Source: Kibdelosporangium persicum (GTDB lineage Bacteria > Actinomycetota > Actinomycetes > Mycobacteriales > Pseudonocardiaceae). Taken from it: a stretch of DNA of 64,000 nt. This document shows positions 2,862-41,050 of this stretch, in pieces. Made by a program: the position numbers and the translations under genes. Location of the stretch: contig NZ_JAAATY010000018.1 in assembly GCF_013280595.1 (NCBI RefSeq), forward strand, positions 1 through 64,000, read 5' to 3'. How positions within the stretch are numbered: the stretch's first letter is position 1; each line of letters opens with the position of its first letter. The notes below the pieces were generated by a model. It worked only from the letters and a program-made list of their open reading frames with translations, searched no databases and was not told the origin of the DNA.

Positions 2862-2913
2862 CCCTCGTGAGTGTTTATCAGGGGTTAGAACACGGATAAA
2901 CACTCACGAAGGG
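2862..2913 (-). repeat. Dispersed palindromic repeat, copy 1
   Basis: Left arm CCTCGTGAGTGTTTATC and right arm GATAAACACTCACGA form a stem of about 15 bp around an asymmetric loop. Read on the reverse strand the loop is GTGTTCTAACCCC, nearly identical to copy 3 at 41001, so this copy is inverted relative to the other two. It fills the 60-bp gap between two convergent genes and probably acts as a bidirectional terminator. Confidence 0.85.
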
Positions 2914-3345
2914 TCAGCCCTGGGTGATGTAGGCCTCGAGCTGCTGCTGGTCTTCTTCGAGCTTCTTGATCCGGCTCTTGACCACGTCACCGATGCTGAC
3001 GATGCCCACGAGCCTGCCGCCCTCCACCACCGGCACGTGCCTGATCCGGCGCTCGGTCATCAGCACGCTGAGGCTGTCGACCGAGTCGTCAGGCCCGGTG
3101 GTGAACACCTCGGTGCTCATGATGTCGGCGACCGGCGAGTCGAGCAGCCCGGCTCCGTAGTCGTTCAGGCGGCGCACGACGTCGCGCTCCGAGACGATGC
3201 CCGCGACGCTGTCGTCGTCGGCGAGGACCACCATCGCACCGATGTTGTGCTCGGCCAGCGCGGCCAGCAGTTCTCTGACCGGCGTGCCCGGCTCGACCGT
3301 CGCCACGGTAGAGCCCTTGGTACGCAACACGTCCGCGATCCGCAT
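2914..3345 (-). CDS. CBS domain protein
   Basis: A protein of 143 residues built almost entirely of a tandem CBS pair, the usual adenosyl-nucleotide sensing module. Conserved turns are visible: GAMVVLADDDSVAGIVSERDVV in CBS1 and RHVPVVEGGRLVGIVSIGDVVK in CBS2. The start at 3345 is preferred because GGAGG lies 5 nt upstream; an in-frame ATG at 3357 would add four residues (MEAL). A short helical tail rich in Glu and Gln follows CBS2. It stands alone in its transcription unit, so its partner is not evident. Similar stand-alone CBS proteins are common in actinobacteria, and the ligand cannot be read from sequence. Confidence 0.9.
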   Translation of the reverse strand: MRIADVLRTKGSTVATVEPGTPVRELLAALAEHNIGAMVVLADDDSVAGIVSERDVVRRLNDYGAGLLDSPVADIMSTEVFTTGPDDSVDSLSVLMTERRIRHVPVVEGGRLVGIVSIGDVVKSRIKKLEEDQQQLEAYITQG

Positions 3346-3436
3346 CAGCGCCTCCATCCCCGCAACCGGTGTGACCCTGCTGACAAGGAGGTTAGGCCTT
3401 CCCCCGTGATCAGCAACAGATCACGGAATGTGTCCG

Positions 3437-3925
3437 TTATGTTTCGTTCTGTGCCGGTCGGCGCAGCACCACGCGTGCGCCCAGCTCGTCCAGCCCGGCC
3501 CGGCGCTCCTCCGCGACGAGTTCCGCCAGCTCAGGGCCGGGTTCGGCGAGGACCCCGAAGCCGAGCCGGGTGTACCAGGGAGCGTTCCACGGCACATCGG
3601 CGAAGGTCGTCAGCGTGACGCCGCGTGATCCCGCACGGTCGAACACGGCTTGCATCAGCGCGGTGCCGATCCCCTGTTTCGCCCACCGCGGATCCACCGC
3701 GATCTGGAACAGGTGGAGATGGTCGTCGACCTGCCCGACGTAGGCGAACGCGACCGGCGGATCGCCCACGACCAGCACGTCGGACGGGTCGGTGACGGTC
3801 TCGACGACGGTCGTGCCCGGCGGGAACACGATGCCGACGGACTCGAACACACCGTCAGCGGCGCGTTCGATGTCGCCCAGAGCGGGCAACTCGGCCGCGG
3901 TCGCGGTTCGGACGACTGGGACCAT
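3437..3925 (-). CDS. GNAT family N-acetyltransferase
   Basis: A protein of 162 residues with the GNAT fold. The acetyl-CoA binding loop is in AVDPRWAKQGIGTALMQAV (Q/R-x-x-G-x-G/A type), and the C-terminal NAPWYTRLGFGVL segment is the usual beta5-alpha4 signature. The frame stays open upstream to 4219, but that part has no domain content and overlaps the divergent gene, so the ATG at 3925 is chosen. That start codon overlaps by two bases an ATG on the opposite strand (3924), so the divergent promoters must be embedded in or very close to the coding starts. The acceptor substrate is unknown. Confidence 0.85.
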   Translation of the reverse strand: MVPVVRTATAAELPALGDIERAADGVFESVGIVFPPGTTVVETVTDPSDVLVVGDPPVAFAYVGQVDDHLHLFQIAVDPRWAKQGIGTALMQAVFDRAGSRGVTLTTFADVPWNAPWYTRLGFGVLAEPGPELAELVAEERRAGLDELGARVVLRRPAQNET

Positions 3926-3947
3926 GGCAGCGCACGCTACCGTCCCG

Positions 3948-5015
3948 ATGGAGCCACTGACGATGAATTTCGAGCCGCACACGAAGCTGGAACGCCGGGT
4001 GGCCGCCGCGGCCGAGCAGGAGCTCGCCGAGGCGAAGATCGTCACCCCGCTCGCGGTGTTCCGGCGGATGGGCTGGCTGCACAAGGTCGAGCGCTGGGAA
4101 CGCGAACAGGTCGAGACGCTGGAGTCGATCGCGGCGGTCAGCGCGGACAAGCTCACCGACGCGCGCGAGATCCTCAGCCGCTGGGCCGAGGCACGAGGCC
4201 TGACGCCCGGGGAAAGCACTTACGTGTCAACCAATCGCGGCCGTCGCCCGCTGAAGTTCACCGTGAGGCAGGACGAAGCGACCGAACGGGCGTACCGGAC
4301 GCACTGGACGTCACCGGACCTGTCCGACAAGCGGCGGGAACGGATCACCCAGAAGCAGAACACCGCGCCGGACCTCGTGGTCGTCATCCCGCTGACCGAC
4401 TGGACGTGCGTCTCCTGCCGGGACACCGGCCCGTACTTGATCATGGACAACAGCGGCCCGCTGTGCCTGACCTGCGCGGACATGGACCACCTGATCTTCC
4501 TGCCGGCCGGCAACGCCACGCTGACCCGGCGCGCGAAGCAGGCCAGCGGCCTGTCCGCGGTGGTGGTCCGGTTCGACGCCCGGCGCAAGCGCTACCAGCG
4601 GCAGGGCCTGCTGGTCGAGGAATCCGCCCTGGAGCAGGCCGAACAGTCCTGCCTGGCGGACGAGGAGGTACGGCTGCGGCGCCGCGAACGCGACCGGGAG
4701 CGCCGGGCGAACGAGGACGTCGTGCTGATCACGCGGATGACCGAACTGATCGGCACACTGTTCCCGCACTGCCCCACGGAACGGGCCGAGGCGATCGCCC
4801 GGCACACCGGGTTACGCGGCAGCGGGCGGGTCGGGCGTTCGGCGGCCGGCCGCGCGCTGGACGAGGAGGCGATCACCCGGGCGGTCGTGGCGTCGATTCG
4901 TCATGAGGACACCGAGTACGACGCGCTGTTGATGTCCGGAGTGGACCGTGACGAGGCCAGGGCCAGGATCCGGTCCAAGATCGACTCGGTTCTCGCATCC
5001 TGGCGGGACGGCTGA
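3948..5015 (+). CDS. DUF2293 domain-containing protein
   Basis: About 355 residues from the ATG at 3948; in-frame ATGs also occur at 3924 and 3963. The middle holds a probable zinc-ribbon-like CVSCRDTGPYL ... CLTCADMDHLIFLPAG segment. A very basic Arg/Glu-rich helix (RLRRRERDRERR) precedes the C-terminal DUF2293-type domain (LFPHCPTERAEAIARHTG ... AVVASIRHEDTEYDALL). No signal peptide or membrane segment is present. The family has no established function; paired Cys-x-x-Cys motifs and basic helices suggest nucleic-acid binding, which is inference. It lies 12 nt upstream of the peptidase gene and may be co-transcribed with it. Confidence 0.75.
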   Translation: MEPLTMNFEPHTKLERRVAAAAEQELAEAKIVTPLAVFRRMGWLHKVERWEREQVETLESIAAVSADKLTDAREILSRWAEARGLTPGESTYVSTNRGRRPLKFTVRQDEATERAYRTHWTSPDLSDKRRERITQKQNTAPDLVVVIPLTDWTCVSCRDTGPYLIMDNSGPLCLTCADMDHLIFLPAGNATLTRRAKQASGLSAVVVRFDARRKRYQRQGLLVEESALEQAEQSCLADEEVRLRRRERDRERRANEDVVLITRMTELIGTLFPHCPTERAEAIARHTGLRGSGRVGRSAAGRALDEEAITRAVVASIRHEDTEYDALLMSGVDRDEARARIRSKIDSVLASWRDG

Positions 5016-5027
5016 CACACTGGGCTC

Positions 5028-7043
5028 ATGAGTGAGCACGACGACCCCTACCTCTGGCTCGAAGAGGTGACCGCGGACGACGCGATGGCGTGGGTCCGCA
5101 AGCGTAACGCGGAGACGGTCGCCGAGCTGACCGGTAGCGCGCGTTTCGCCGAGCTGCGTGACGAGATCCGCGCGGTGTTCGACGCCGACGACCGGATTCC
5201 CTACGTCCGCCGCCGCGGCGAATACCTCTACAACTTCTGGCAGACGCCGGCCAACCCACGCGGGCTGTGGCGCCGTACCACCCTGGAGCAGTACCGCCTC
5301 GACGAGCCGGACTGGGAGGTCTTGCTCGACGTGGACGCGCTGGGCGAAGCCGAAGGCGAGAACTGGGTCTGGGACGGTGCCGCCATACTGCGGCCCGGCT
5401 ACCGGCTGGCGCTGGTGAACCTGTCGCGCGGCGGCGCCGACGCCGCCGTGGTCCGGGAGTTCGACCTGGCGAAGCGCGAGTTCGTGCCCGGCGGGTTCGA
5501 ACTGCCCGAGGCCAAGAGCTTCCTGCGCTGGATCGACGCCGACCGGGTGTACGTGGGCACCGACTTCGGGCCCGGGTCGATGACGTCGTCCGGATACCCC
5601 CGCGTGGTCAAGGAATGGCAGCGGGGCACGCCGTTGACCGAAGCGGTCACGGTGTTCGAGGGCAAACCCGAGGACGTGTCGGTCTACGCCACCCACGACC
5701 CGACACCGGGCTACGAACGCGACTTCGTCGGCCGCAACATCGACTTCTACCGCTCGGAACGCTTCCTGCGCACGGAATCCGGCGACCTGATCCGGATCGA
5801 CGTTCCGGACGACGCCGAGACCGACGTGGAACGCGAGTGGCTGCTGATCACGCTGCGCTCGCCGTGGACCGTCGGTGGGACGACGTATCCCGCCGGTGCG
5901 CTGCTGGCCACCAGGTTCGACGATTTCCTTGCCGGCGCACGCGAAATGGACGTCCTGTTCGAACCGGACCCGCACACGTCGCTGACGTACCACTCGTGGA
6001 CCAAAAACCACGTCCTCATCAACACGCTGCACGACGTGCAGAGCCGCATCGAGGTGCTCACGCCCGGCCCGGACGGCTGGCGGCGCGCGCCGCTGACCGG
6101 CGTGCCGACGGGCGCGCTGTCGGAGATCACCGACACCGATCCCGATGTCAGCGACGAGTACCTGATGAACTCCAGCGGGTACACCGAACCCGCGACGCTG
6201 CGGCGTGGTGTGGTCAACGGCGAGCCGGAGATCCTCAAGCAGGCGCCTGCCCGGTTCGACGCGACCGGGATCGAGGTGCGGCAGCACTTCGCGACTTCGG
6301 CCGACGGCACGAAGATCCCGTACTTCGTGGTCGGCAAGGACGACCCGATCGCCCGTCCCACCCTGCTTTCCGGGTACGGCGGCTTCGAGGTCTCGTTGAC
6401 GCCAGGCTACCTGGGCCACGTCGGCCGGGCATGGCTGGCACGCGGCGGCACGTACGTCGTGGCCAACCTGCGTGGCGGCGGTGAGTACGGGCCGAACTGG
6501 CATTCCCAGGCGGTGAAAGCGAATCGGCACCTGGTCTACGAGGATTTCGCGGCGGTGGCGCGGGATCTGATCGACCGCGGCATCACCACGCCGGACCGGC
6601 TGGGCATCCAGGGCGGCAGCAACGGCGGCCTGCTGATGGGTGTCATGCTGACCCACTACCCCGAACTGTTCGGCGCGATCGTGTGCCAGGTGCCGCTGCT
6701 GGACATGAAGCGCTATCACGAGTTGCTGGCCGGCGCGTCCTGGATGGCCGAGTACGGTGATCCGCGCAAGCCGGAGGAATGGGCCTTCATCGAGCCGTTC
6801 TCGCCGTACCACAACGTCCGTGCGGACGCGAAGTACCCGCCCGTGCTGTTCGCGACGTCCACAAGGGACGATCGGGTGCATCCGGCGCACGCCCGCAAGA
6901 TGGTCGCCCGAATGCGTGAGCACGGCCACGACGTGCGCTACTACGAGAACATCGAAGGCGGGCACGGCGCGGCCGCGGACAACGAACAGCTCGCGTTCAA
7001 GTGGGCACTGGTCTTCGAGTTCCTCTGGGAGAAACTCAGCTGA
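5028..7043 (+). CDS. Prolyl oligopeptidase family serine peptidase (S9)
   Basis: A 671-residue S9 family peptidase. The N-terminal DDPYLWLEEV is the classic start of prolyl oligopeptidases, followed by a beta-propeller region to about residue 430 and a C-terminal alpha/beta hydrolase domain. The triad is visible: Ser531 in GGSNGGLLMG, Asp614 or Asp615 in TRDDRVHPAHARK, and His646 in EGGHGAA. No signal peptide is seen, so it is probably a cytoplasmic enzyme cutting short peptides after proline or a related residue. It starts 12 nt after the DUF2293 gene and its last 8 nt overlap the 3' end of the convergent zinc peptidase gene. Confidence 0.92.
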   Translation: MSEHDDPYLWLEEVTADDAMAWVRKRNAETVAELTGSARFAELRDEIRAVFDADDRIPYVRRRGEYLYNFWQTPANPRGLWRRTTLEQYRLDEPDWEVLLDVDALGEAEGENWVWDGAAILRPGYRLALVNLSRGGADAAVVREFDLAKREFVPGGFELPEAKSFLRWIDADRVYVGTDFGPGSMTSSGYPRVVKEWQRGTPLTEAVTVFEGKPEDVSVYATHDPTPGYERDFVGRNIDFYRSERFLRTESGDLIRIDVPDDAETDVEREWLLITLRSPWTVGGTTYPAGALLATRFDDFLAGAREMDVLFEPDPHTSLTYHSWTKNHVLINTLHDVQSRIEVLTPGPDGWRRAPLTGVPTGALSEITDTDPDVSDEYLMNSSGYTEPATLRRGVVNGEPEILKQAPARFDATGIEVRQHFATSADGTKIPYFVVGKDDPIARPTLLSGYGGFEVSLTPGYLGHVGRAWLARGGTYVVANLRGGGEYGPNWHSQAVKANRHLVYEDFAAVARDLIDRGITTPDRLGIQGGSNGGLLMGVMLTHYPELFGAIVCQVPLLDMKRYHELLAGASWMAEYGDPRKPEEWAFIEPFSPYHNVRADAKYPPVLFATSTRDDRVHPAHARKMVARMREHGHDVRYYENIEGGHGAAADNEQLAFKWALVFEFLWEKLS

Positions 7044-8019
7044 CCTCGCCGGCCGGGGCCAGCCAGGTGTTGCAGGACGCGGTGTTGTTGTTCTTCACAC
7101 CGGCTGTGCCCCACTGGATCTGGTGCTTGACGCTGCCGTGTGTCTTGTCCGCGACCGAACTGCGGAACGCCGAGGACGCGGAGTTGCTCAGCGACTTGGT
7201 GATCGACCCGCGTCCCCCGGCGGCGCCGATGAACATGCCGGAGAAGCAGTCGGCCTGCAGTTCCATCCGGCGGGTCAGTTCGAGGTACTCCGGCGAGCCC
7301 TCGTCCATCCCGGCCATCTTCATGCCCATGCCCTGGTTGATGCGGCTCAACGCCTGCACGTGGTGGCCGTACTCGTGGGCCAGCACCATGACGTGGCCGC
7401 CCTGGTTGCTGCCCATGGACTCGTTGACCCGGCTGCGCGGCATGAAGATCCCCTTGTCCCGTGGGCAGTAGAAGGCGACCGCCTCCTCCCTGCTCGGGGT
7501 GCCGCAACTGCTCGTCGGGGCGTCGTCGACCGACAGCTTCGGCGATTCGAAGACGTGGTCGGCCTGTTCGAGCAACGGGCGCCACGCTTCGTCGAGACAC
7601 CCGATCATGGCCTGGTAGTAGGCCCGCAACTGGTCCGCGGACCGGCCGAACCCGGGCAGCTTGCACGTGATCTGCGGCAGCTGCAGGCCCGGCGTGAGCA
7701 GCGGGTTGGCCTCGGTCAGCTCCTGCCAGCGCGGCTTCGACGACCTGCTGGTCGTCGTCGGGGTGACGGTGTTCGGGGCCGCGGCGTTCGGTTTGTTCTC
7801 CACCGGAGGCGCGGCCAACGGGGTACCGGCCACCGCGGTGGTGAACTTGCCCGGCGCGCCCATGGCCAGCACGACGACGAGCACAAGACCGAGGACTGCG
7901 AAGATCGCCAGCGGTGAGTTGCGCCGCTGGCCGGCAACCTGGATCGTCTCCGGCCGAGGCAGTGACCGCCACCTCGGCTCCGGCGGTTCCGCGACCGGCG
8001 GGCCCTCGTCCTCGGCCAT
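7036..8019 (-). CDS. Neutral zinc metallopeptidase, membrane-anchored (YpfJ-like)
   Basis: A 327-residue protein with a cytoplasmic N terminus of about 35 residues, one membrane segment (LAIFAVLGLVLVVVLAMGA), a Pro/Thr-rich linker and a C-terminal peptidase domain. The zinc motif HEYGHH lies in MVLAHEYGHHVQ, and downstream LELQADCFSGMF supplies the third-ligand region typical of the putative neutral zinc metallopeptidase family (PF04228). Orientation implies an extracytoplasmic catalytic domain. The substrate is unknown. It is convergent with the prolyl oligopeptidase, overlapping 8 nt, and lies downstream of the YdcF-like gene on the same strand. Confidence 0.9.
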   Translation of the reverse strand: MAEDEGPPVAEPPEPRWRSLPRPETIQVAGQRRNSPLAIFAVLGLVLVVVLAMGAPGKFTTAVAGTPLAAPPVENKPNAAAPNTVTPTTTSRSSKPRWQELTEANPLLTPGLQLPQITCKLPGFGRSADQLRAYYQAMIGCLDEAWRPLLEQADHVFESPKLSVDDAPTSSCGTPSREEAVAFYCPRDKGIFMPRSRVNESMGSNQGGHVMVLAHEYGHHVQALSRINQGMGMKMAGMDEGSPEYLELTRRMELQADCFSGMFIGAAGGRGSITKSLSNSASSAFRSSVADKTHGSVKHQIQWGTAGVKNNNTASCNTWLAPAGEVS

Positions 8020-8052
8020 GTGTCCCCCTCTGGGTGCAGTGCGATCATGCCA

Positions 8053-8733
8053 TCAGCGGGTGCCCGTCCGCTGTGCCCCCACCAGATCACGCACGGCCGT
8101 GTCTGGTGTGGACAGTACGGCGGGCGCGCGGTTCCAGATGGCCTCAGGCACGGCCGCGACCGTGGCCAGCCACTCCCGCAGACGGTTGCGGGCAAGGCTG
8201 AACACGGAGCAGTCGCAGGCAGCGGCCACACCGTCGGCCTGCACCCCGAGACCGCGGCAGAGCGCGACGGCCCGCGGCAGATGATAGGGCTGCGTGACCA
8301 GCAACGCGCGGTCTATTCCGTAGACCTGGACGGCCCGTGCGCATGTGTCGTACGTATCCAGGCCGAACGGGTCCACCACGATCATCTTCGGATCGACACC
8401 CCTGGCGGTCAGGTACTCCGCCATCGCCTTCGTCTCGTTGCCCGAAGTACCGTTCGCGTCCCCCGACACGAGGACGACCTTCACCTTGCCCGCCCGCACC
8501 AGTTCCACGGTCGCGTCCAACCGGCCTGCCAGGAACGGCAGCGGCCGGTCATCCCGCACCTTCGCCCCGAACACGATCGCGACAGGCGCACTGGGCGCCC
8601 CGGCCACATCGAACCGATGGCCGGCGGAGGCGCCGTAGGACCACGTCAGGCTCCCGCCGACCGCGGCACCGGCGACGCCGACGGCGATCAGCCCGAACCG
8701 CAGAGTCAGGCGCCGCCAGCGCCGCTTGTCCAT
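8053..8733 (-). CDS. YdcF/SanA family protein (DUF218)
   Basis: A 226-residue protein with one N-terminal membrane anchor (residues about 10-30) followed by the DUF218 domain. Signature segments are VAIVFGAKV, VLVSGDANGTSGNETKAMAEYL, DTYDTCARAVQVYGI and LLVTQPYHLPRAVALCRGLG. SanA/YdcF relatives act in cell-envelope functions (vancomycin exclusion, ElyC) without a firmly defined reaction. It starts 33 nt upstream of the zinc peptidase gene on the same strand, so the two envelope genes may form an operon. A strong hairpin at 8753-8788 separates it from the surface-protein gene upstream. Confidence 0.88.
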   Translation of the reverse strand: MDKRRWRRLTLRFGLIAVGVAGAAVGGSLTWSYGASAGHRFDVAGAPSAPVAIVFGAKVRDDRPLPFLAGRLDATVELVRAGKVKVVLVSGDANGTSGNETKAMAEYLTARGVDPKMIVVDPFGLDTYDTCARAVQVYGIDRALLVTQPYHLPRAVALCRGLGVQADGVAAACDCSVFSLARNRLREWLATVAAVPEAIWNRAPAVLSTPDTAVRDLVGAQRTGTR

Positions 8734-8752
8734 ACGACAATGAAACCAGAAA

Positions 8753-8788
8753 CCCGCCTGGCAAGCCGGGAACGCCGTGCCAGGCGGG
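8753..8788 (-). terminator. Stem-loop downstream of the surface-protein gene
   Basis: CCCGCCTGGC (8753-8762) pairs perfectly with GCCAGGCGGG (8779-8788) around a 16-nt loop, 12 nt after the reverse-strand stop at 8800. No U-tract follows. It is likely a factor-assisted or weak intrinsic terminator for the surface-protein gene. Confidence 0.6.
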
Positions 8789-8799
8789 CGGACGGCCGG

Positions 8800-9570
8800 T
8801 CAGGTGCGGCGGCGTTTCCTGGTGAACAGCACGGCGCCGATTCCCAGCGCCAACACCGCGATTCCGCCGATGGTCAGGCCGATGACGTTGGCGCCGGTGG
8901 TGGCCAGTGTCTGGGTCTGGTCCGCGGAGACCTTCTTGGCCTGCACGACCGGGCCTCGCGGAGCCTCGACGGGTGCGGTGCCGGCTGGGCCGGGCACGAC
9001 CGGGATCGCCCAGCCGTCGCCGAAGCCGTCCGCGCTGACCACGACGAACTCGTTGAACTTCATCTTCCACGGGCCCTGGAAGACCGGGACGTACCAGCCA
9101 GCCGGGATGTTCTCGAACCGGTAGCCGCCGTCGGCGCCGGTCGTGGCGGACGCGATCTTCGTGCCGTCAAGGGGATCGGTCAGCGTGACGACGAGGCCTC
9201 TGACGTGCTCGCCTTCGTCGACCGCGTTGTCGTTGTCCTTGTCGTGGTAGAACAAGCCGCTGCCGGTGCCGTTCTTGCCGGGCACCTTGGCCAGGGTGAA
9301 GATCCGCGGGAAGCCTTCGACGTTCGGGTCACCCTTGCGGCCCACGTCGCAGTGGACGAACACGACGCCCTGGTCGATCGCACCTTCCGGCACGAGGCCG
9401 TCGACCGTGTACGTCCGGGTCTCCCCCGCCTTGACGGTCGTGCCCTGGCCGAGGACGGCCAGTTCGCCCCAGCGTTTGAAGTTCTGGCTGCCGAGCAGGT
9501 GCACCGGGTTGTCCGCGCGGTTGCAGGTCGCGACGACGCCGGTGATCTCGTCCGCGCCGCTGTTGGTCAA
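8800..9570 (-). CDS. Surface protein with LAxTG-like anchor, 3' part of a frameshifted gene
   Basis: 256 codons in a different frame from the upstream part, beginning formally at a TTG (9570) that is probably not a real start. It contains a SdrD-B-like calcium-type repeat (FYHDKDNDNAVDEGEHVRG, then GGYRFENIPAGWY) and a C-terminal sorting signal: LATTG, a hydrophobic stretch of about 20 residues and the charged tail TRKRRRT. LAxTG is the motif class used by class E sortases of actinobacteria. Joined to the upstream part it would form a secreted, wall-anchored protein of about 560 residues. Either the gene is broken in this strain or the assembly lacks one base near 9580. Confidence 0.75.
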   Translation of the reverse strand: MTNSGADEITGVVATCNRADNPVHLLGSQNFKRWGELAVLGQGTTVKAGETRTYTVDGLVPEGAIDQGVVFVHCDVGRKGDPNVEGFPRIFTLAKVPGKNGTGSGLFYHDKDNDNAVDEGEHVRGLVVTLTDPLDGTKIASATTGADGGYRFENIPAGWYVPVFQGPWKMKFNEFVVVSADGFGDGWAIPVVPGPAGTAPVEAPRGPVVQAKKVSADQTQTLATTGANVIGLTIGGIAVLALGIGAVLFTRKRRRT

Positions 9571-10484
9571 GGTGATCGCAGCGTGGCCTCGTCACCCGGC
9601 TTGTACGGGCCCTCGTTGAACTTCGCGGTCGCCTTGAGTTGCGCGGACAACGGGCGGACCGCCTGGATCAGGATGTTGTCGTTGGGCCTCTCGCCGTTGA
9701 CGACAACCGTGGCGGTCTGGGTCAGCCATCCGTCGGCCAACTGGCGGGGCGCGTTGACGGTGTACTGGCCCGCCGGCAGGTCCTTGGCCTCGAACCGGCC
9801 GTTCGCGTCCGTCCTGACCGTCAGGTCCTGCACGCGCGGGCCGTTGATCGTCACCGGGACGTCCGCGGCGCCTTCACCCGCGTCCGCGATGGTGTTGTTG
9901 TACTTGTCCAGGTAGACGGTTCCGGCGACCGAGCCCTTCGTGGCCGGCGGAACGACCGGGACGGACACGACCTTCTTGTTGTCCGCCAGGTCCGAGTCGT
10001 TCACGGTCGTGGTGGAGAACTCCAGTTGCGCGCCGGTCCCGGTCGCCTCCTTGAAGTGACCGGTCACGCGCAGTTCACGGGTCTCCTTGGGGGCCAGCGT
10101 CACCCCGGTCCCGAGGTCCCCCCACTGCGCGTCGTCGAACGTGAACTGCGCGCCGCTCACCGACCGGAAACCGGCCTTGACCTCCTTGGCCTCCCCCGGG
10201 CCCATGTTGGCGATGGTGAGCGTCACCCGCAGCGGTTCACCCTCGACGTATCCGCGTGACTCGAACTGCGGTTCCCGCAGCTCCACATCGGGCTGGAGCT
10301 CGGGCTGCCCCGGCTCGGCGGGCTGGCCCTTGGGGGCGATCTCAGGGACGGCCTCAGGCGCGTTCGACGACGTGGGGACCGCGGAGCCGGACGGCGCCGG
10401 ATCAGCGAAGGCCGGTGCGCCGCCGAGGGCGACGAACAACGCCGCGGACGCACAGGCCATGTGTCTGAGTCGACGCGTGTGCAA
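9567..10484 (-). CDS. Surface protein, 5' part of a frameshifted gene
   Basis: The N-terminal half of the same protein. TTG at 10484 is the best start: GGGGGTG lies 6 nt upstream and it gives the signal peptide HTRRLRHMACASAALFV...APAFA. The frame is open further up to an ATG at 10535. After a Pro/Glu-rich segment come CARDB/DUF11-like beta domains (LTIANMGPGEAKEVKAGF) and a first SdrD-B-like unit (VYLDKYNNTIADAGEGA). It ends abnormally at EATLRSP-stop. In the next frame the text continues naturally as ITLTNSGADEITGV, so a missing G in CTGGCG around 9580 would restore one continuous protein. Confidence 0.75.
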   Translation of the reverse strand: MHTRRLRHMACASAALFVALGGAPAFADPAPSGSAVPTSSNAPEAVPEIAPKGQPAEPGQPELQPDVELREPQFESRGYVEGEPLRVTLTIANMGPGEAKEVKAGFRSVSGAQFTFDDAQWGDLGTGVTLAPKETRELRVTGHFKEATGTGAQLEFSTTTVNDSDLADNKKVVSVPVVPPATKGSVAGTVYLDKYNNTIADAGEGAADVPVTINGPRVQDLTVRTDANGRFEAKDLPAGQYTVNAPRQLADGWLTQTATVVVNGERPNDNILIQAVRPLSAQLKATAKFNEGPYKPGDEATLRSP

Positions 10485-10560
10485 GGGACACCCCCGTGTC
10501 AGGCCACCCCCATGGCGTTCGCGACGCCCCGACACCGCACGTGAGGTCGCCAGAGTGTGA

Positions 10561-10594: not shown

Positions 10595-10638
10595 CGCCTG
10601 CCCTTGAACACCCTCGGCACCGAAACTGTTACCTGGCG

Positions 10639-11975: not shown

Positions 11976-12221
11976 GTGAATGAACAAGAGATTCTCGACC
12001 AGATCCGGACCCTTGTCGATCAAGAACACGACCTGCGCACCCGGAGCGTCGCGGGCGAAATCGACTCCGCCGAGGAACAGGCCAGGTTGCGGTCCCTCGA
12101 GGAGTCGCTCGACCAGTGCTGGGACCTGCTGCGCCAGCGCCGCGCCCGGCGTGAGGTGGGCGACAATCCCGACAACGCCGAGGTGCGCCCAGCCCAGCAG
12201 GTCGAAGGCTACCTACAGTAA
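11976..12221 (+). CDS. DUF2630 family protein
   Basis: An 81-residue acidic, helical protein starting at GTG. The sequence NEQEILDQIRTLVDQEHDLRTRS followed by LRSLEESLDQCWDLLRQRRARRE is characteristic of the short DUF2630 family, common in actinobacteria. It probably folds as a helical hairpin. Function is unknown. It is a single-gene unit, divergent from the P450 gene and convergent with the YCII gene, with a palindromic repeat ending the unit. Confidence 0.88.
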   Translation: MNEQEILDQIRTLVDQEHDLRTRSVAGEIDSAEEQARLRSLEESLDQCWDLLRQRRARREVGDNPDNAEVRPAQQVEGYLQ

Positions 12222-12229: not shown

Positions 12230-12280
12230 CCTCGTGAGTGTTTAGCCGGGTTCTAACCCTGATAACCACTCACGAGGGGT
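12230..12280 (+). repeat. Dispersed palindromic repeat, copy 2
   Basis: CCTCGTGAGTGTTTA ... GATAACCACTCACGAGG with loop GGTTCTAACCCT. It is in the same orientation as copy 3 and lies 8 nt after the DUF2630 stop. Its right arm reads through the end of the convergent YCII gene: on the reverse strand CCC TCG TGA within the repeat gives the last residues and stop of that protein. Confidence 0.85.
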
Positions 12281-12695
12281 TCTCGGCGCGGGCTCGCAGC
12301 GCGGCGTCCTTGGCCCGGGCCTCCTCGGTGAACTCGTCGCCGAAGTCGTCCGGCCCGAACACCGGCCGGATCTCGATCTCGCCGTGCACGCCCTCCGGGT
12401 TGGGCACCTGCTTGACCCACTCGATGGCCTCCTCCAGCGACGGCAGCTCCCAGATCCAGTAGCCCGCGATCAGCTCCTTCGTCTCGGCGAACGGGCCGTC
12501 GATCACGGTGGTCTTCTTGCCGTCGAACTTCACCCGCGCGCCCTTGGAGCTCGGGTGCAGGCCGTCGCCGCCGACCATGATCCCCGCGTTGACGAGCTTC
12601 TCGTTGAACTCGGTCATCTCGGTGAGCAGTTCCTCACTCGGCATGACCCCGTTCTCCATGTCCTCGGTCGCCCTGATCATGACCATGAACTTCAT
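12270..12695 (-). CDS. YCII-related (DGPF domain) protein
   Basis: A protein of 141 residues of the YCII/DGPF family, with TTVIDGPFAETKELIAGYWIWEL as the family signature and KFMVMIRATEDMENG at the N terminus. Members adopt a dimeric ferredoxin-like fold; function is poorly known, and many are encoded near sigma factors or regulators. The ATG at 12695 is chosen because homology begins there and GGTGGGAG lies upstream. The C-terminal residues Asn-Pro-Ser and the stop codon are encoded by the palindromic repeat, so the repeat has shaped the protein end. A second YCII gene lies at 56297. It is divergent from the TetR gene at 12810. Confidence 0.9.
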   Translation of the reverse strand: MKFMVMIRATEDMENGVMPSEELLTEMTEFNEKLVNAGIMVGGDGLHPSSKGARVKFDGKKTTVIDGPFAETKELIAGYWIWELPSLEEAIEWVKQVPNPEGVHGEIEIRPVFGPDDFGDEFTEEARAKDAALRARAENPS

Positions 12696-12809
12696 CGGAT
12701 TTGTGCTCCCACCAGTAAAGTGTTGCCTATGCGACGGTGACTGAGGCGTAAACTGTATCCATCGGACGCTGTGTAGGCCAGACACGGTTCTTCTACCGGA
12801 AGCAGGGCT

Positions 12810-13568
12810 GTGGAGAACGTCTTCGGTGATCATGCGGACGTCGTCGAACTGCTGTGGGGCCTGCGGGAGCCGCCGAGCCGGGGCCCGAAGCCCACGCTCA
12901 GCGTCGAGCGGATCGCCCGGGTCGCGATGGGCATCGCGGACACCGACGGGCTCGCGGCCGTCTCGATGCAGCGCGTCGCCGGCGAGCTCGATGTCACGAA
13001 GATGGCGCTGTACCGGTACGTCTCCGGCAAGCCGGAACTGCTCGCGGCGATGATCGAACTCGCCGCCGGAGACCCGCCGGACCTCAGCGGCGTGCCCGGT
13101 GGGTGGCGCGGCAAACTGGAGGAGTTCGTCCGCAGGCTGGCCATCGTGTGGCGGCAGCACCCCTGGCTGCCCTGGTCCACGCTCGGCGACCGCCCGATGG
13201 GGCCCCGGGAGCTGGGCTGGATCGAGTCGGCGATCAGCGCGCTGGCCGGCACCGGGCTGACCGGCGAGGAACAGCTGGACGCCGTGTTCATCCTCTTCGG
13301 ACTGATCCGGAACACGCAGTCGATGTCCACGGCGGGCACGCAGCCGTGGGACGCCGACAAGAATGTCAAACCCCTCATGCAGGAACTACTGCACCGCTAC
13401 GGCGACAGGTTTCCCGCGTTGACCGCTGCGACGACGGGAACCACATGTTCGTCACGGGACAACGGCCGCGAATTCGGTGTGCACAGATATCTCGACGGCC
13501 TGGAAGCCCTGATCAACCAGCGCGCATCCGACGGTACCCGCCCGGAGGCAGGCCGAAAGCCCGCTTGA
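12810..13568 (+). CDS. TetR/AcrR family transcriptional regulator
   Basis: A 252-residue regulator starting at GTG. The helix-turn-helix spans about residues 30-80 (VERIARVAMGIADTDGLAAVSMQRVAGELDVTKMALYRYVSGKPELLAAM). The remainder is the long ligand-binding domain of the TetR_C type (WLPWSTLGDRPMGPRELGWIES). It is divergent from the YCII gene with 114 nt between starts, so it may control that gene, though no clear operator palindrome was found there. Its last 56 nt overlap the 3' end of the convergent AraC-type gene. Confidence 0.88.
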   Translation: MENVFGDHADVVELLWGLREPPSRGPKPTLSVERIARVAMGIADTDGLAAVSMQRVAGELDVTKMALYRYVSGKPELLAAMIELAAGDPPDLSGVPGGWRGKLEEFVRRLAIVWRQHPWLPWSTLGDRPMGPRELGWIESAISALAGTGLTGEEQLDAVFILFGLIRNTQSMSTAGTQPWDADKNVKPLMQELLHRYGDRFPALTAATTGTTCSSRDNGREFGVHRYLDGLEALINQRASDGTRPEAGRKPA

Positions 13569-33911: not shown

Positions 33912-33913
33912 TC

Positions 33914-35101: not shown

Positions 35102-35106
35102 TCGCG

Positions 35107-35874
35107 GTGCTGTGGCCACGGCCAGTCCAGGTGGCACTGGACTCGCTGGCACGCCTGGTCCGGATCGAGGACATCGGTACCGTGCCCGAGGTGCTGTTGC
35201 CGTCGGCCGGATGGCAGCCACGGCACGAGGATCACGCGCTGGACAGACAGGTACGGGACGAGTGCGCCCGGCTGAACTGGCTGGACCACCGCGGCCAGCT
35301 GGATGTCGACGTGGCCTCGGCGTTGCGGGTGGTCTGCCGGGCCACCACGGAGTTCTACGGATGGATCACCGCGGGCCAGACGACGACGGGTGTGCTGGCT
35401 GGGCGTCTCGGGCGGCAGGCACTTCTGGCTGTCCGGCGTGAGACATCGGTGTCACTCTGCTCGATCCGGTCGGACAACCTCGCGACGATGGTGGTCGCTC
35501 AGACCCCGGACGTTCCTGCTGGACAAGGAAAGCCGGCCCGGGTACAACGCTCGGACGCGCTCGCTTTCGACGGCGGTCGGCCACGCCCGCACGGCGGGCT
35601 GACCGTGAAGCCGGTCCCGCCGGACGTCCGGCGGCTGATCCAGGTCGCCATGCTGCCGCGAACCGGCGGAGGCGAGTTCCACGTCGCGGTGCGGGATTCC
35701 ATGGGCCGCCGAGTGTCCAGTGTGGACAATGTGTCTTATGTGGACACGGCGGCGGGCCGGTACGCCACCTTGACCAGCACCGTCGACGGCGACACCGAAC
35801 TGCTGCTCATTCCGACAGATCAGCGCGACCTGGTCGCCCGGCTGCACGAAACACACCACTCACTGACCAGATGA
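35107..35874 (+). CDS. ESX secretion-associated protein EspG
   Basis: 255 residues starting at GTG. It has the EspG family pattern: ARLNWLDHRGQLDVDVASALRVV near the N terminus, FYGWITA, GRQALLAVRRETSVSLCSIRSDN and a C-terminal RYATLTSTVDG...ELLLIPTDQRDLVARLHETH. EspG proteins are cytosolic chaperones that bind the tip of PPE proteins and keep the PE-PPE pair soluble for ESX secretion. Its place directly behind the PPE-like gene fits a dedicated chaperone. A perfect 16-bp hairpin ends the unit. Confidence 0.88.
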   Translation: MLWPRPVQVALDSLARLVRIEDIGTVPEVLLPSAGWQPRHEDHALDRQVRDECARLNWLDHRGQLDVDVASALRVVCRATTEFYGWITAGQTTTGVLAGRLGRQALLAVRRETSVSLCSIRSDNLATMVVAQTPDVPAGQGKPARVQRSDALAFDGGRPRPHGGLTVKPVPPDVRRLIQVAMLPRTGGGEFHVAVRDSMGRRVSSVDNVSYVDTAAGRYATLTSTVDGDTELLLIPTDQRDLVARLHETHHSLTR

Positions 35875-35897
35875 GTCCTGCATGTCCTGCCCGTTCT

Positions 35898-35940
35898 CGG
35901 TTCGTGATCGCCGCCCGCTTCGAACGGCGATCACGAACCG
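35898..35940. terminator. Bidirectional stem-loop between espG and the M6 protease gene
   Basis: CGGTTCGTGATCGCCG (35898-35913) pairs perfectly over 16 bp with CGGCGATCACGAACCG (35925-35940), with an 11-nt loop. It fills the gap between two convergent genes and so can serve both. Sequence is unlike the dispersed repeat at 2862, 12230 and 41000. Confidence 0.8.
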
Positions 35941-35946
35941 GATTTG

Positions 35947-38001
35947 TCAGTGCAGCGGTGGGATGGTGTTGGCAACCGACAGCTGGCACGTGGCCGTGCT
36001 CGTGGCGCTGGGGTTGCTCTCCGACTTCGCGGTCAACGTCACCGTCGCGTGCGGCATGCCGCCATGGGCACGAACCGCGTTGACGGGCACCTGAACGGTC
36101 GTCCCGGCCTTGGCGGTCACGATCTCCGAAGGCAACTGGACGCTCCAGCCGTTGCCGGACACCGAAGCCGACAGACGGTAGACGTCAGAGTCCACGTAGG
36201 CGCTGACGTCCTCCGGGTGGCCGTTGGTGAACGGACGCACCTGGCCGGTGTTGCGCAGCGGGAACTGGCAGGTCGCGACCTCGGCGGGGACGCGACCGAC
36301 CGGGTTGCCCCGGCCGACGGAGACGCCGCGGGTGTGCGGGCCCTGGCCGTCCAGCGACCGTACCGCCAGCTTGTAGCTCAGCACTCCCTTGGCGTCGCGG
36401 TTGACGTCGATGACGTAGAAGTGCAGGCGGTTGACCGAGTCGACGTACTCGTACTTCGTGCCCGATCCTGTTCCGGCGTGGAACAGGGCGTCCGACAGCT
36501 GCCGGTAGTCGCCGATCGTCATGTACTGCTTCGTCCCGTCAGGACGGACGAAGTCGACAGTCCGGATGTCCTCCGGGTGTGAGTCGACGACCCAGACGAA
36601 CGGCGTCGAGTCGGCGTTCTTGGTCTTCGACAGCATCACACCGGAGTCCGGGGTGAACGAGTCGTAGCCGATCCGGTCGACCACCTCGACGGTGTAGTTG
36701 TTGTAGTTCCCGCCGTCACACAACGGATCCTCTGCCGTTTTGCACGATCCAGTCGACTTGTCGCCGTTCATCGCGATGTTGGCGCCGGTCAGGCCGGTCC
36801 GCCCGGCCGGGCCCATGGGGATCGCGCGGGCGGTCACGTTCATCACCACGACACCCGACGTGGCAAGGGCTTCCCGCGACAGCCGCAGGATGTTGGCCTC
36901 GTCCACGATGTTCAGTTTCATCTTGTCGCGCAAGGTGTGCTGCACGCCTGCCGCGCCGCCTTGCGTGGCGGGGATGTGGTAGCGCGTGTGCGGGCCGCCT
37001 GGGCCGTTGAACGTGCCACGGTCGAGCATGCTCCACGGACCGGCACCGGCACGGCGTTGTGGTGTGCCGTAAGGGTTGTTGTAGTTGTCCGCGATGCCGA
37101 AGACGTGGCTCAGCTCGTGGGAGAACGTGCCCAGACCGGAGCTTTCGGCCTGGGTCGTGCTCTTGCCCGAGGCGTTGGGCCAGTGGTTCGCGGCGGCCTG
37201 CCACGTGGTCCACGGCACGTACCGCGTCTTGGCGCACCGGGGTTTCGTGGGGTCCGGGCCGCCGAACGCGGCGGGGATCGACTCGCAGTCGGCGAACTTC
37301 ATCTCGCCGAACTCCTGCCACGTCGACGATTCGTCGTTGCCCGCGGTCTGGTAGAAGATCACGTCGTACTTGCCGTCGATGTCCGAGCCCTGCTCGGCTC
37401 GCCACGCACCGCCCAGGTCGGTCCGCAGACTGCGGTTGCACTGGTCGCCTGCCGGGCAGCTGCCCGCGGCCTGATCCCATTCGTTGAAGCCGTATTCGTG
37501 CTTCTTGCCGGGCAGGCGGTACACGCCGAACGCGTCGAGCGTGACGCCGATGCGCCCGTTCGACACCTCCATCCAGTACCCGTGCATCGTCAGGCCGTGG
37601 TTGATCTCCTGCGGCTTGTTCAGGAAGTCCCGGTAGAAGTTCGCGACCTCTTTCGGGTCGAGTTTCAGGTCGGAACGCGGGTTGTTGTACACGTCGGTGT
37701 TGCGCGCCCGGGTGATCGCGAACTGCTCGTTGGGGTAGTCACCGAGGACGAGCGCCGCCTTGATCGTGCGCACCGAACCCTTGCGGTTCGGGTCGGACCA
37801 GTCGATGTCGGGGACCTCGCGCAGGTCCTGCCACGTCATCGCGTCCGGGTTCTCCCAGTTCTGCGGGTCGATCGGGGCGAGGACCTGCTCTTTGGTCGGC
37901 CACGGTCTGCCGGGTGCGGCGTACGCGGGAGCCGAGGCCAGCGCGAGTCCTAACCCGGTGACCACCATTAACGAAAGCAAACGACGGCCAGGTGGGGACA
38001 T
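35947..38001 (-). CDS. Secreted M6 family metalloprotease (immune inhibitor A-like)
   Basis: 684 residues with a signal peptide (1-28, cleavage near AYA-AP). The catalytic M6 domain carries the zinc motif HELSH at His295-Glu296-His299 in TFSHELSHVFGIADNYN, with GPWSMLDRGTFNGPGGPHTRYH downstream (Met-turn region). The C-terminal 200 residues look like beta-sandwich domains (DGQGPHTRGVSVGRGN; VTLTAKSESNPSA). Related enzymes degrade extracellular proteins. It is convergent with the EspG gene and separated from it by a hairpin, and upstream of it lies the conserved miaB block. Confidence 0.9.
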   Translation of the reverse strand: MSPPGRRLLSLMVVTGLGLALASAPAYAAPGRPWPTKEQVLAPIDPQNWENPDAMTWQDLREVPDIDWSDPNRKGSVRTIKAALVLGDYPNEQFAITRARNTDVYNNPRSDLKLDPKEVANFYRDFLNKPQEINHGLTMHGYWMEVSNGRIGVTLDAFGVYRLPGKKHEYGFNEWDQAAGSCPAGDQCNRSLRTDLGGAWRAEQGSDIDGKYDVIFYQTAGNDESSTWQEFGEMKFADCESIPAAFGGPDPTKPRCAKTRYVPWTTWQAAANHWPNASGKSTTQAESSGLGTFSHELSHVFGIADNYNNPYGTPQRRAGAGPWSMLDRGTFNGPGGPHTRYHIPATQGGAAGVQHTLRDKMKLNIVDEANILRLSREALATSGVVVMNVTARAIPMGPAGRTGLTGANIAMNGDKSTGSCKTAEDPLCDGGNYNNYTVEVVDRIGYDSFTPDSGVMLSKTKNADSTPFVWVVDSHPEDIRTVDFVRPDGTKQYMTIGDYRQLSDALFHAGTGSGTKYEYVDSVNRLHFYVIDVNRDAKGVLSYKLAVRSLDGQGPHTRGVSVGRGNPVGRVPAEVATCQFPLRNTGQVRPFTNGHPEDVSAYVDSDVYRLSASVSGNGWSVQLPSEIVTAKAGTTVQVPVNAVRAHGGMPHATVTLTAKSESNPSATSTATCQLSVANTIPPLH

Positions 38002-38069
38002 GACGTTCCTTCCGGAGGAAGCAGGGAGAAAGCCTGTCCCGCGAGCCTATGAGCGCCCGGCTATGTCGA

Positions 38070-38555
38070 TCAATCGGCCGAAAGTCGCTGATTGTTGTCG
38101 AGATCCGGCCGTGACCAGGCGGTACGGAACCAGCACGTCGCGATCACGACCATCGCGATCACGGCGATGACGAGGCCGATGCCGGGCGACGCCTCCGGCG
38201 TGGACTGCCGCGACCAGATCGCCAGCATGCCGTCGACCGAGGCGAACCAGCCGCCGATCGCGCACACCCACGTCAACGCCCAGAGCCGCGTCATCAACGC
38301 CAGCATCGAGGCCAGCACCCCGAACCCGGCCGCGGTCGCCGCGAACAACCGGGGCACCACGCCCGCCTTGCCCTCGACGTGCCCTAGCAGCACCTGCCAG
38401 CCGTTCGCCCCGTTCAGCCACGGCAGCAGCAGGCCCACCAGCAGCACCAGCACCGCCACCGAGATCACGATCGCCCTGGCGCCCAGGTCGACGGTGCGAA
38501 TGGCCTTGCGCTCCACCGCGTCGATCTGGTCACGCAGGTGGTCGACGTCCGTCAT
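38070..38555 (-). CDS. Rv2732c-like four-helix membrane protein
   Basis: 161 residues from the ATG at 38555, whose first bases overlap the miaB stop as ATGA, showing translational coupling; an ATG at 38567 is possible but less likely. A short amphipathic N terminus ([25 protein letters not shown]) is followed by about four membrane helices ([74 protein letters not shown]). Position directly after miaB matches Rv2732c of M. tuberculosis. Function is unknown. Confidence 0.85.
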
Positions 38556-40021
38556 CGGACCGCACATCCTTCGTCGCTCGTCTCGACCACGGGCGGCTTG
38601 CCGAATCCCGGCAGCCCGAGGCTGATCCCGTTGGTCTTCGGCCGCAGCCCGGCCTCGGAGTTGTCGCCCGCACGCGTCCGCCTGTGGCTCACCAACGGAC
38701 CGTCGGCGACGAGGTGGTGCGGCGCGCCGTACGTCACCGTCGCCTCGACCACGTCTCCGGGCCGTACGTTGGCGTCTCCCGGCGTGAAGTGCACCAGGCG
38801 ACCATCTCGTGCCCGGCCGCTCATCCGGCGCGTGTCAGCGTCCTTACGGCCCTCGCCCGCGGACACCAGGACCTCGAGGGTCCTGCCGACCAGGTCCTTG
38901 TTCAGCTCCCAGGAGATCTCCTCCTGCAACGCCACCAGCCGGTCGTAACGCTCCTGCACGACCTGCTTGGGCACCTGCTCGTCCATCCCGGCCGCCGGCG
39001 TGCCCGGGCGCTTGGAGTACTGGAACGTGAACGCGCCCATGAACCGGGCCTCGCGGACCACGTCCAGCGTGGCCTGGAAGTCCTCCTCGGTCTCCCCGGG
39101 GAAGCCGACGATGATGTCGGTGGTCAGCGCCGCGTCCGGCATGGCGGCCCGGACCTTCTCGATGATCCCGAGGTAGCGCTCGGAGCGGTACGAGCGGCGC
39201 ATCGCCTTGAGCACCCGGTCCGAGCCGGACTGCAGCGGCATGTGCAGCTGGTGGCAGACGTTCGGGGTCTCGGCCATCGCCGCGATCACGTCGTCGGTGA
39301 AGTCCTTCGGGTGCGGCGAGGTGAACCGGACCCGCTCGAGCCCGTCGATGTCGCCGCACGCCCGCAGCAGCTTGCCGAACGCCAGCCGGTCGCCGAACTC
39401 GACGCCGTAGGAGTTGACGTTCTGGCCGAGCAGCGTCACCTCGAGCACGCCCTCGTCCACGAGTGCCTGCACCTCGGCGAGAACCTCGCCGGGCCGACGG
39501 TCCTTCTCCTTGCCCCGCAACGACGGCACGATGCAGAACGTGCACGTGTTGTTGCAGCCGACCGAGATCGACACCCAGCCCGAGTAGGCCGAGTCGCGCC
39601 GGGCGGGCAGGCTGGACGGGAAGACCTCCAGCGCCTCGAGGATCTCGACCTGGGCCTCCTCGTTGTGCCGGGCACGCTCCAGCAACGTCGGCAACGAGCC
39701 GATGTTGTGCGTCCCGAACACCACGTCCACCCAGGGCGCACGCTTGACGATCTCGCCCTTGTCCTTCTGCGCCAGGCAGCCGCCGACGGCGATCTGCATG
39801 CCCGGATGGGCCTTCTTCGTCGGCAACAGGTGGCCGAGGTTGCCGTAGAGCTTGTTGTCCGCGTTCTCGCGGACCGCGCACGTGTTGAGCACCATCAGGT
39901 CAGGCGTCTCGTCGCCGGTCGCGGCCGTGTACCCGGCCTCTTCGAGCATGCCGGCCAGCCGTTCGGAGTCGTGCACGTTCATTTGGCAACCGAACGTACG
40001 GATGGCGTAACTGCGAGTCAC
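38552..40021 (-). CDS. miaB: tRNA-2-methylthio-N6-dimethylallyladenosine synthase
   Basis: A 489-residue radical SAM methylthiotransferase starting at GTG. Domains in order: UPF0004 ([17 protein letters not shown], with cysteines also in [11 protein letters not shown] and VGGCLAQ), the radical SAM domain with CNNTCTFC coordinating the second cluster, and a C-terminal TRAM domain ([13 protein letters not shown]...[12 protein letters not shown]). It completes ms2i6A37 in tRNA after MiaA. The C-terminal 40 residues beyond TRAM are extra and variable. It overlaps the downstream membrane-protein gene by 4 nt. Confidence 0.97.
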
Positions 40022-40082
40022 ACTGGCTCCTCAAACGATGGTGTCGCGCCCATCCAGGGTAGTTCCCACGTCTGGCACCATC

Positions 40083-40997
40083 GTGACCGTGTCTCGGAAG
40101 CTCGTCACACTGATTACCGTGCTGCTGGTCGTGGCCGGCTGTACGAGCGTCACCGAGGACCTCAGGCTGACGATCGCCACGGGGTTCCCGAGCGGCGTCT
40201 ACAACAAGCTCGGCAACGCACTGGCCACGGAGTGGTCCAAGCAGATGGGCATGCCGACGCCCACCGTGCTGGCCACCGAGGGCTCGCCGGACAACATCAA
40301 CCGGCTGGCGGCGGGCCAGGCCGACATCGCCTTCAGCGCCGCCGACGTGGCCAACGACCGGCGTAACGACAAGTTCAGCGCGCTCGCCCGGATCTACGAC
40401 GACTACCTGCACATCGTCGTGCGGGCGGACTCCCCGATCCGGGCGCTGGCGGATCTGACCGGCAAGCGGATCGGGATCGGCGCGGCCAACTCGGGCGTCA
40501 AGACGATCGCCGAGCGTGTGCTGAAGATTCTCAAGGTGGACGGCCAGCCGTTCGAGTACGGCCTGCCGCAGTCCACCGACGCGCTGCGCAAGGGCGAGAT
40601 CGACGCGTTCTTCTGGTCCGGTGGCCTGCCGACCGACGAGATCGTCCAGCTGTCGCGGGCCATGGACATCCGGCTGCTCGACATGAGCGAGCAGATGCGC
40701 ACGATCCGCAAGGACTACCGCTATTACGGCGCCGCGACGATCCCGCTGTCGGTGTACCAGGTCGCCAACACCGTCCCGGTGACCACGTTGACCGTGCCGA
40801 ACCTGCTGATGGTGACCGACCGGCTGTCCAACGACGCGGCCAAGGCGCTCGCCCAGGGCATCTTCGCGGCCCAGAAGCAGCTGGCCGACGTCACCGAGGC
40901 GGCCGACTCGATCGACATCCGCTCGGCCGTGGAAACCCACCCGATCCCGCTGCACCCCGGCGCCCGCGAGTTCTACCGCGACGAAAAACAGCTGTAA
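40083..40997 (+). CDS. TAXI family solute-binding lipoprotein
   Basis: About 304 residues starting at GTG (40083; another GTG at 40089). A lipoprotein signal (LVTLITVLLVVAGC) anchors it outside the membrane. The mature part is a TAXI receptor: LTIATGFPSGVYNKLGNALA, EGSPDNINRLAAGQADIAFSAADV, GIGAANSGVKTIAERVL, FWSGGLPTDEIVQLS. These proteins bind small acidic solutes for TRAP transporters, but no TRAP permease gene is near. It is convergent with a sensor kinase gene, suggesting a possible sensing rather than transport role (inference). Confidence 0.87.
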   Translation: MTVSRKLVTLITVLLVVAGCTSVTEDLRLTIATGFPSGVYNKLGNALATEWSKQMGMPTPTVLATEGSPDNINRLAAGQADIAFSAADVANDRRNDKFSALARIYDDYLHIVVRADSPIRALADLTGKRIGIGAANSGVKTIAERVLKILKVDGQPFEYGLPQSTDALRKGEIDAFFWSGGLPTDEIVQLSRAMDIRLLDMSEQMRTIRKDYRYYGAATIPLSVYQVANTVPVTTLTVPNLLMVTDRLSNDAAKALAQGIFAAQKQLADVTEAADSIDIRSAVETHPIPLHPGAREFYRDEKQL

Positions 40998-40999
40998 AA

Positions 41000-41050
41000 C
41001 CCTCGTGAGTGTTTATCCGTGTTCTAACCCTGATAAGTACTCACGAGGGG
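41000..41050 (+). repeat. Dispersed palindromic repeat, copy 3
   Basis: CCTCGTGAGTGTTTATC ... GATAAGTACTCACGAGG with loop GTGTTCTAACCCT. It lies 3 nt after the TAXI stop and runs through the end of the convergent kinase gene, whose last codons Pro-Ser-stop (CCC TCG TGA) are inside it. Same layout as copy 2. Confidence 0.85.

Follow-up and report, generated by a model that had tools for sequence, protein, structure and literature searches.

Three palindromes between convergent genes

We analyzed a stretch of 64,000 nucleotides of Kibdelosporangium persicum (contig NZ_JAAATY010000018.1, positions 1 to 64,000; the whole of it is referred to here as the window), in which a preliminary description had singled out a palindromic repeat of about 50 bp, placed only between the 3′ ends of convergent genes, and had interpreted it as a dispersed element resembling the repetitive extragenic palindromes (REPs) and used as a bidirectional terminator. 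Three similar palindromes are indeed present: copy 1 at 2864–2910 on the minus strand, and copies 2 and 3 at 12231–12276 and 41002–41047 on the plus strand. Copies 2 and 3 are 46 bp long, while copy 1, inverted relative to the other two as had been described, is a 47-bp variant with one extra base beside its center and a changed last arm base. A shared pattern with up to 3 mismatches matches copies 2 and 3 and gives no matches in 100 shuffles; it misses copy 1 because of the extra base. All three copies are predicted to fold strongly on both strands (−29.2 and −32.1 kcal/mol for copy 1, −27.5 and −28.4 for copy 2, −28.1 and −25.0 for copy 3), with z values ranging from −4.5 to −6.8 overall and reaching −5.8 and −6.8 for copy 1. 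Rfam gives no match at gathering score in the window, and only 3 matches, far under the cut-off, at copy 3.

An independent codon-based gene prediction places all three copies in gaps between convergent genes. Copy 1 is entered by the 3′ end of a predicted gene at 1309–2853 (plus strand), whose stop lies 10 bp ahead of the repeat, and faces a predicted gene at 2914–3357 (minus strand), whose stop lies 3 bp past it. Copy 2 is entered by a short predicted gene at 11976–12221 (plus strand; weak prediction score of 18.3) and by an open reading frame (ORF) at 12270–13160 (minus strand), the TGA stop of which lies inside the repeat and for which the codon-based prediction has a later start (12270–12695). 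Likewise, copy 3 lies between a predicted gene at 40083–40997 (plus strand; the ORF spans 40038–40997) and a gene at 41041–42441 (minus strand) that also has its TGA stop inside the repeat.

A dispersed family with fixed ends and a pairing interior

The 10.35-Mb genome that contains the window (G000) carries 307 copies with exact arms, compared to 0 for a reversed-pattern control. In 800 kb of one of its contigs (C1), a weight matrix identified 53 full copies and 2 copies broken by an insertion sequence (IS), compared to 0 in the reversed sequence. A further match to the arms, the 54th, has 4 mismatches and lies deep within a predicted gene; it is without the center of the family, looks like a chance match and was excluded. 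Within these 800 kb, no exact arm 10-mer occurs outside a pair, except at the two IS-broken copies. In a survey of the intergenic palindromes of C1 (18-bp arms, up to 3 mismatches), 49 of 87 belonged to this family, and no other family had at least 3 members. The search for further copies that the preliminary description had called for therefore returned many, and these are not distributed at random with respect to gene ends (see below).

The unit measures 46 bp, with near-invariant 10-bp inverted ends CTCGTGAGTG / CACTCACGAG and a frequent central TTCTAA. The asymmetric loop that had been noticed in the window is real: when oriented by the CT of the center, 42 of 42 exact-arm copies in the 800 kb of C1 plus the window have GTTCTAAC, which is also the center, with some exceptions, in genomes G000, G003, G004, G060 and G064. 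Between ends and center, the interior differs by lineage, being TTTATCCGT in G000, TTTTGGCCG in G004 and GTAAGGACG in both G060 and G286, with further private interiors in G282 (ATTTGGGTC) and G277 (AGAAACAGT). To compare these interiors, we took the first 46-bp copy of each of 34 genomes, chosen blind to pairing, which gave 33 distinct sequences. In these, 8.70 of 10 mid positions pair, versus 4.20 (sd 0.31) with shuffled right halves, and up to four Watson-Crick pair types occur at a single interior position; TTCTAA is the exact center in 14 of the 33.

Within a single genome the interior can be looser. In G064, positions 2–10 pair in 39–40 of 40 copies and the center positions 20–22 in 37–39, while positions 11–17 pair in only 12–35. 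The mismatched interiors suggested free assortment of half-repeats, which we mostly reject for this genome because partner positions covary (pairs 11-36, 12-35 and 13-34 at z >10 among the 100 copies listed), and because in 22 of these 100 copies the 10-nt halves are exactly complementary, versus 4.4 expected. Pair 11-36 covaries in G000 as well. Taken with compensatory changes in the arms of a G182 copy (see below), the pairing across genomes and the covariation in G064 indicate that the stem is under selection.

Uneven distribution and turnover among relatives

The per-genome counts of exact arms are complete; the lists of individual matches show a portion of them, and an absence there carries little weight. 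In the Pseudonocardiaceae, we found exact arms in 71 of the 297 sampled genomes, representing 14 of 46 genera, with 1 to 307 copies each, and in 3 of 318 genomes from other families of the order. Within the genus itself the counts are very uneven: 307, 301, 89, 84, 54, 12, 4 and 2. Decayed copies are underrepresented when only exact arms are counted. G182, with 2 exact-arm copies, holds at one orthologous site a 46-mer whose two arms have both changed so as to compensate each other; at a second site there is an apparent copy split by other DNA. One consensus 46-mer had no match in plasmid sequences.

Orthologous gaps point to turnover. For gaps with a repeat in G000, G001 has a repeat in 0 of 6, with an ordinary hairpin instead at two of these and a gap of at most 12 bp at others; in 400 kb, this genome has no palindrome family with at least 3 members. 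G004 has a repeat in 3 of 5 such gaps. At two convergent sites common to G000 and G004, the letters show the same orientation with G004's own interior; a Fisher test for this genome pair gives p 9e-4, although the test draws on four gene ends from just two places. Between G000 and G003, no orthologous gene end has a copy in both genomes, and 7 and 7 have one in only one of them. We also considered G230 as an empty site at one G060 locus (site H), and rejected this because approximately 10 bp kept by two other species are gone along with the repeat, so that the site looks like a deletion.

Copies concentrate at gene 3′ ends

To place the copies relative to genes, we used a codon-statistics predictor of our own making; the gap-type counts are therefore subject to some error, and genes may have been missed next to copies scored as divergent. 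The exclusive placement between convergent genes seen in the window does not extend to the genome: of the 53 copies in C1, 26 lie in convergent gaps, 18 in tandem gaps and 9 in divergent gaps, so that 27 lie elsewhere than between convergent genes. What the tabulation does uphold is an excess in convergent gaps, which make up 0.157 of the intergenic DNA, giving an approximately threefold enrichment (p 1.4e-8). Counted by gap, copies occupy 26 of the 131 convergent gaps, 18 of the 442 tandem gaps and 9 of the 131 divergent gaps. The convergent excess is found likewise in G064 (19 of 40 copies) and G060 (9 of 13).

In tandem gaps, the copy overlaps or lies within 25 bp of the upstream stop in 16 of 18 cases; the downstream start is this close in 5 of 18. 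Over all C1 copies, a gene 3′ end enters 62 of the 106 copy sides, with 21 copies receiving two such ends, 20 receiving one and 12 receiving none. The commonest entry is a stop codon inside the arm, with 15 of the 62 gene ends exactly at TCG-TGA (CTCG TGA). We saw no clear link between loop orientation and the direction of transcription: among the tandem-gap copies, 7 lie with and 11 against it in G000, and 12 with and 4 against in G064.

The preference for convergent gaps would also suit a DNA-level binding site, whether for gyrase, a nucleoid protein or a roadblock protein, located where transcription-driven supercoils collide. Invariant 10-bp arms at a fixed spacing around a variable interior do resemble a protein site, and E. 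coli REPs are reported to be bound by gyrase, Pol I and IHF (PMC1525189). However, a chromosome-wide site should not drop from 307 to 2 exact-arm copies within one genus, and pairing of the interior would be unnecessary for it. We consider this explanation unlikely.

Comparison with known repeat systems

REPs, also called palindromic units (PU), that are associated with REP-associated tyrosine transposases (RAYTs) fall into GTAG- and CGTC-tagged superfamilies, and as portrayed in the excerpted text of PMC3733652 they have much in common with our palindrome: they are short, high-copy, extragenic and located downstream of coding regions, favor convergent and tandem gaps, form lineage-specific families and are targets of IS elements. 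The copy number (307 exact-arm copies; 53 in 800 kb) fits this picture. Considering the number of copies, their common skeleton and their uneven spread, we regard the palindromes as a dispersed REP-like family rather than as ordinary terminators, and this part of the preliminary description was borne out, with copies gathering at the 3′ ends of genes and between convergent ones.

Membership of the RAYT type was rejected, because there is no tag and most copy-rich genomes tested have no Y1 transposase. None of the 53 copies has an unpaired tag inside its 46 bp, and within 8 nt outside the ends, the 106 flanks contain GTAG 1, CTAC 3, CGTC 2 and GACG 0 times (expected 0.9, 0.9, 5.2 and 5.2). The REP transposase domain PF01797 is present in 4 of 21 genomes, namely G005 (84 copies) and the copy-poor G001, G002 and G007. 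Nor do the 53 copies of C1, which lie at least 1,060 bp apart, form the paired clusters known as bacterial interspersed mosaic elements (BIMEs); in G064, two pairs of copies lie approximately 0.46 kb apart. In short, our palindrome differs from REP/RAYT systems in its 46-bp length, its ten near-invariant bases per end, the absence of a tag and its occurrence as single copies in C1.

The near-invariant ends are terminal inverted repeats of the kind that miniature inverted-repeat transposable elements (MITEs) have, and direct target duplications, which would go with them, were at chance level when flanks of 2–12 bp were compared for the 53 copies. As for an autonomous partner with the same ends, the 800 kb of C1 showed no unpaired exact arm apart from the IS-broken copies. 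Longer direct repeats flank the unit at two single sites. At C1:267,446 in G000, the repeat (within 267,431–267,520) has on each side a nearly identical 22-bp stretch of an operon junction, in direct orientation; in the G001 and G004 counterparts, where the two genes have overlaps of 1 and 4 bp, a single such stretch is visible. At C3:163158 in G060, the repeat and approximately 50 further bases lie between 12-bp direct repeats that are the overlapping ends of two convergent genes; judging from match coordinates, this 12-bp stretch is single in five relatives (among the matches listed), of which G182 was read.

The uptake signal sequences of Neisseria and Haemophilus are likewise a 10-mer that occurs as inverted pairs where genes end. 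They differ from our palindrome in that its exact 10-mer is not found unpaired in the 800 kb, save in the IS-broken copies. We did not recognize a description of the palindrome among the openly licensed papers listed by our searches.

An insertion sequence that lands in the palindrome

In G000, an IS has its right end at the center of a repeat copy in all 8 cases found (C1:295, C1:91996, two on C69, and one each on C53, C40, C31 and C22). Of 8 contigs with a left end, 7 show the same repeat-center junction by pattern (C3, C23, C27, C36, C37, C40 and C43), and 4 of these were read; the eighth, C31, has no exact junction match, and one more left end coincides with the edge of its contig. On the host side, the IS ends that were read are bordered by TTCTAA or TTAGAA, which suggests a target duplication of 6–8 bp, although contigs break inside the IS and leave the two ends of one insertion unjoined. 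GGG adjoins the IS at 8 of 8 right ends and is probably part of it, since the repeat has G at position 19 in only 12 of 42 copies. The end piece of the transposase (48 residues) matches PF13701 (DDE_Tnp_1_4) at E 4e-5 and 22.5 bits, under the cut-off of 34.7; we take this domain to represent the IS1380 family. The front piece of the transposase (101 residues) matches no Pfam family at E 0.01, and none of the 31 other genomes tried had the IS–repeat junction.

The elements known to insert into REPs include IS1397, IS621, ISKpn1, ISPsy8, ISPpu9 and others, and the families listed for them, in the portion of PMC1525189 drawn on here, are IS3, IS110, IS4, IS256 and IS5. Like the G000 element, they have all or nearly all of their copies in a repeat, at one fixed point (same portion of PMC1525189). 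The IS1380-like transposase piece sets the G000 element apart from these five families. We propose that the IS parasitizes the palindrome family, landing in the loop where it would do no damage to genes.

Terminator, selfish element or both

The hairpins are stable (mean −28.5 kcal/mol in G000) and lie directly behind stop codons, though 12 of 53 copies are without an entering gene end. For comparison, Streptomyces intrinsic terminators have median stabilities of −23.6 to −25.95 kcal/mol and 3–4 U in the first 10 nt, and thus share with our palindrome long, very stable hairpins behind genes and weak U-tracts; they are not described as one repeated family in the available text of that study, whereas our palindrome has invariant ends and a U enrichment that is weak or absent (PMC12207403, in part). 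In G000, the first 10 nt past the hairpin contain on average 2.44 T versus a background of 1.59, and the counts for G000, G064 and G060 do not amount to a U-tract. The bidirectional terminator proposed in the preliminary description is a candidate function: the hairpin is strong on both strands (−25.0 to −32.1 kcal/mol in the window), but the U enrichment behind it is weak or absent. That the sequence is conserved past the needs of a terminator, as had been remarked of the loop, is substantiated by the fixed arms across genera.

If the copies were ordinary bidirectional intrinsic terminators, brought to one sequence by convergent selection rather than by spreading, then their position behind stop codons, their Streptomyces-like stability (PMC12207403, in the part consulted) and the plain hairpins at two orthologous gaps of G001 would all be expected. 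Ordinary terminators, however, need no fixed arms, 46-bp length or conserved loop common to several genera; G001 has no palindrome family of at least 3 members in 400 kb; and the U count in G064 is at background. Because arms, length and loop are common to several genera, we reject the ordinary terminator as the sole explanation, and judge convergence of this kind to be highly improbable.

Our preferred reading, to which we give slightly better than an even chance, is that the palindromes form a new family of REP-like elements, copied about the genome by a putative enzyme and retained at gene ends; there the hairpin would probably end or protect mRNAs. An enzyme would recognize the fixed ends, perhaps in a folded strand, and spread copies; with spread by end recognition, each lineage would carry the interior of its recent master copies. 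Copies would persist behind stop codons, where a transcribed hairpin may be harmless, or useful in terminating transcription or protecting the mRNA 3′ end, and between convergent genes one palindrome could serve both messages. That the interior pairs and that copies lie behind stop codons both point to a folded strand, most likely an RNA hairpin that closes one or both messages at the 3′ end. Judged from its sequence and position, the palindrome may end transcription.

Several observations weigh against this reading. No mobilizing enzyme was found in a PF01797 search of 21 genomes, this domain being missing from G000, G003, G004, G006, G027, G060, G064 and G286, and no target duplication adjoins the unit (chance level for flanks of 2–12 bp at 53 copies). 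Only a few sites are common to G000 and G004. In G000, the 10-nt halves are exactly complementary in 3 of 53 copies, with 2.4 expected by free assortment. On the side of function, 12 of 53 copies have no entering gene 3′ end on either side; the mean number of T in the first 10 nt is 1.46 in G064 (background 1.47) and 1.71 in G060 (1.58); and a simple terminator scan at copy 3 gave 0 calls. Finally, flanks in G000 are weakly conserved to approximately 13 bp past the unit ends (e.g., CCAGCTCACC), and GGTCACC/GGTGACC flanks part of the G064 copies; the true unit may therefore exceed 46 bp, and by our own estimate may be about 72 bp.

Some of these points would be accommodated by a purely selfish palindrome, spread by an enzyme and tolerated behind stop codons, with a hairpin useless to the host. 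The very uneven copy number in one genus (from 307 and 301 through 89, 84, 54 and 12 down to 4 and 2), the stop codons within the unit (15 of 62 at TCG-TGA), as expected of copies intruding into gene ends, the absence of U enrichment in G064 and the 9 of 53 copies between divergent genes all favor this explanation. It does not readily account for the preference for convergent gaps past their share of intergenic DNA, nor for stem pairing kept across genomes with compensatory change at an orthologous site, although mobility itself could require pairing; we hold it to be possible but doubtful.

We give a similarly tentative place to a mobile palindrome system unlike either REP/RAYT or MITEs, in which an enzyme would read the fixed skeleton (a 46-bp unit bounded by two 10-bp ends, with a TTCTAA center in many lineages) as a folded single strand and copy it into or beside stop codons, while the interior drifts and keeps its pairing. 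If this is true, the private interiors at orthologous sites, such as the two G000–G004 sites where orientation is kept, would mean that older copies are overwritten in place.

Under the preferred reading of a REP-like family kept at gene ends, palindromes behind many genes in an actinobacterial family are candidates for 3′-end punctuation that doubles as an IS landing pad. The fixed ends with a private, pairing interior offer a handle to trace the spreading enzyme, and also to test whether the host has co-opted a selfish repeat as a bidirectional terminator of its genes.

Other repeats

Further repeats were seen alongside the 46-bp family. At gene ends of the G060 group, orthologous sites show other dispersed hairpins that take the place of the 46-bp repeat or break it up. 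One such G060 family, with ends of approximately GTACATGAAGGCCCCCTTCC, has 6 members in 400 kb and dozens of matches in relatives (among the matches listed), and another, with CGTGAAGGCCTCCTTGAGGG, has 3 members in 400 kb. G064 contains a second small palindrome family, with ends of approximately CATGAACGACCCGTTACTGGC and 3 members in 400 kb. A tandem repeat of a 22-bp unit (approximately GGTGCCGGAATGGTGGACACGG) occupies C1 at about 398,040–398,140 in G000, and this stretch has dozens of matches in relatives, chiefly in G003 and G005 (again among the matches listed). One viral contig from IMG/VR carries the skeleton of the 46-bp family at 29–74 of the examined stretch, near its start, where it is perhaps host flank.

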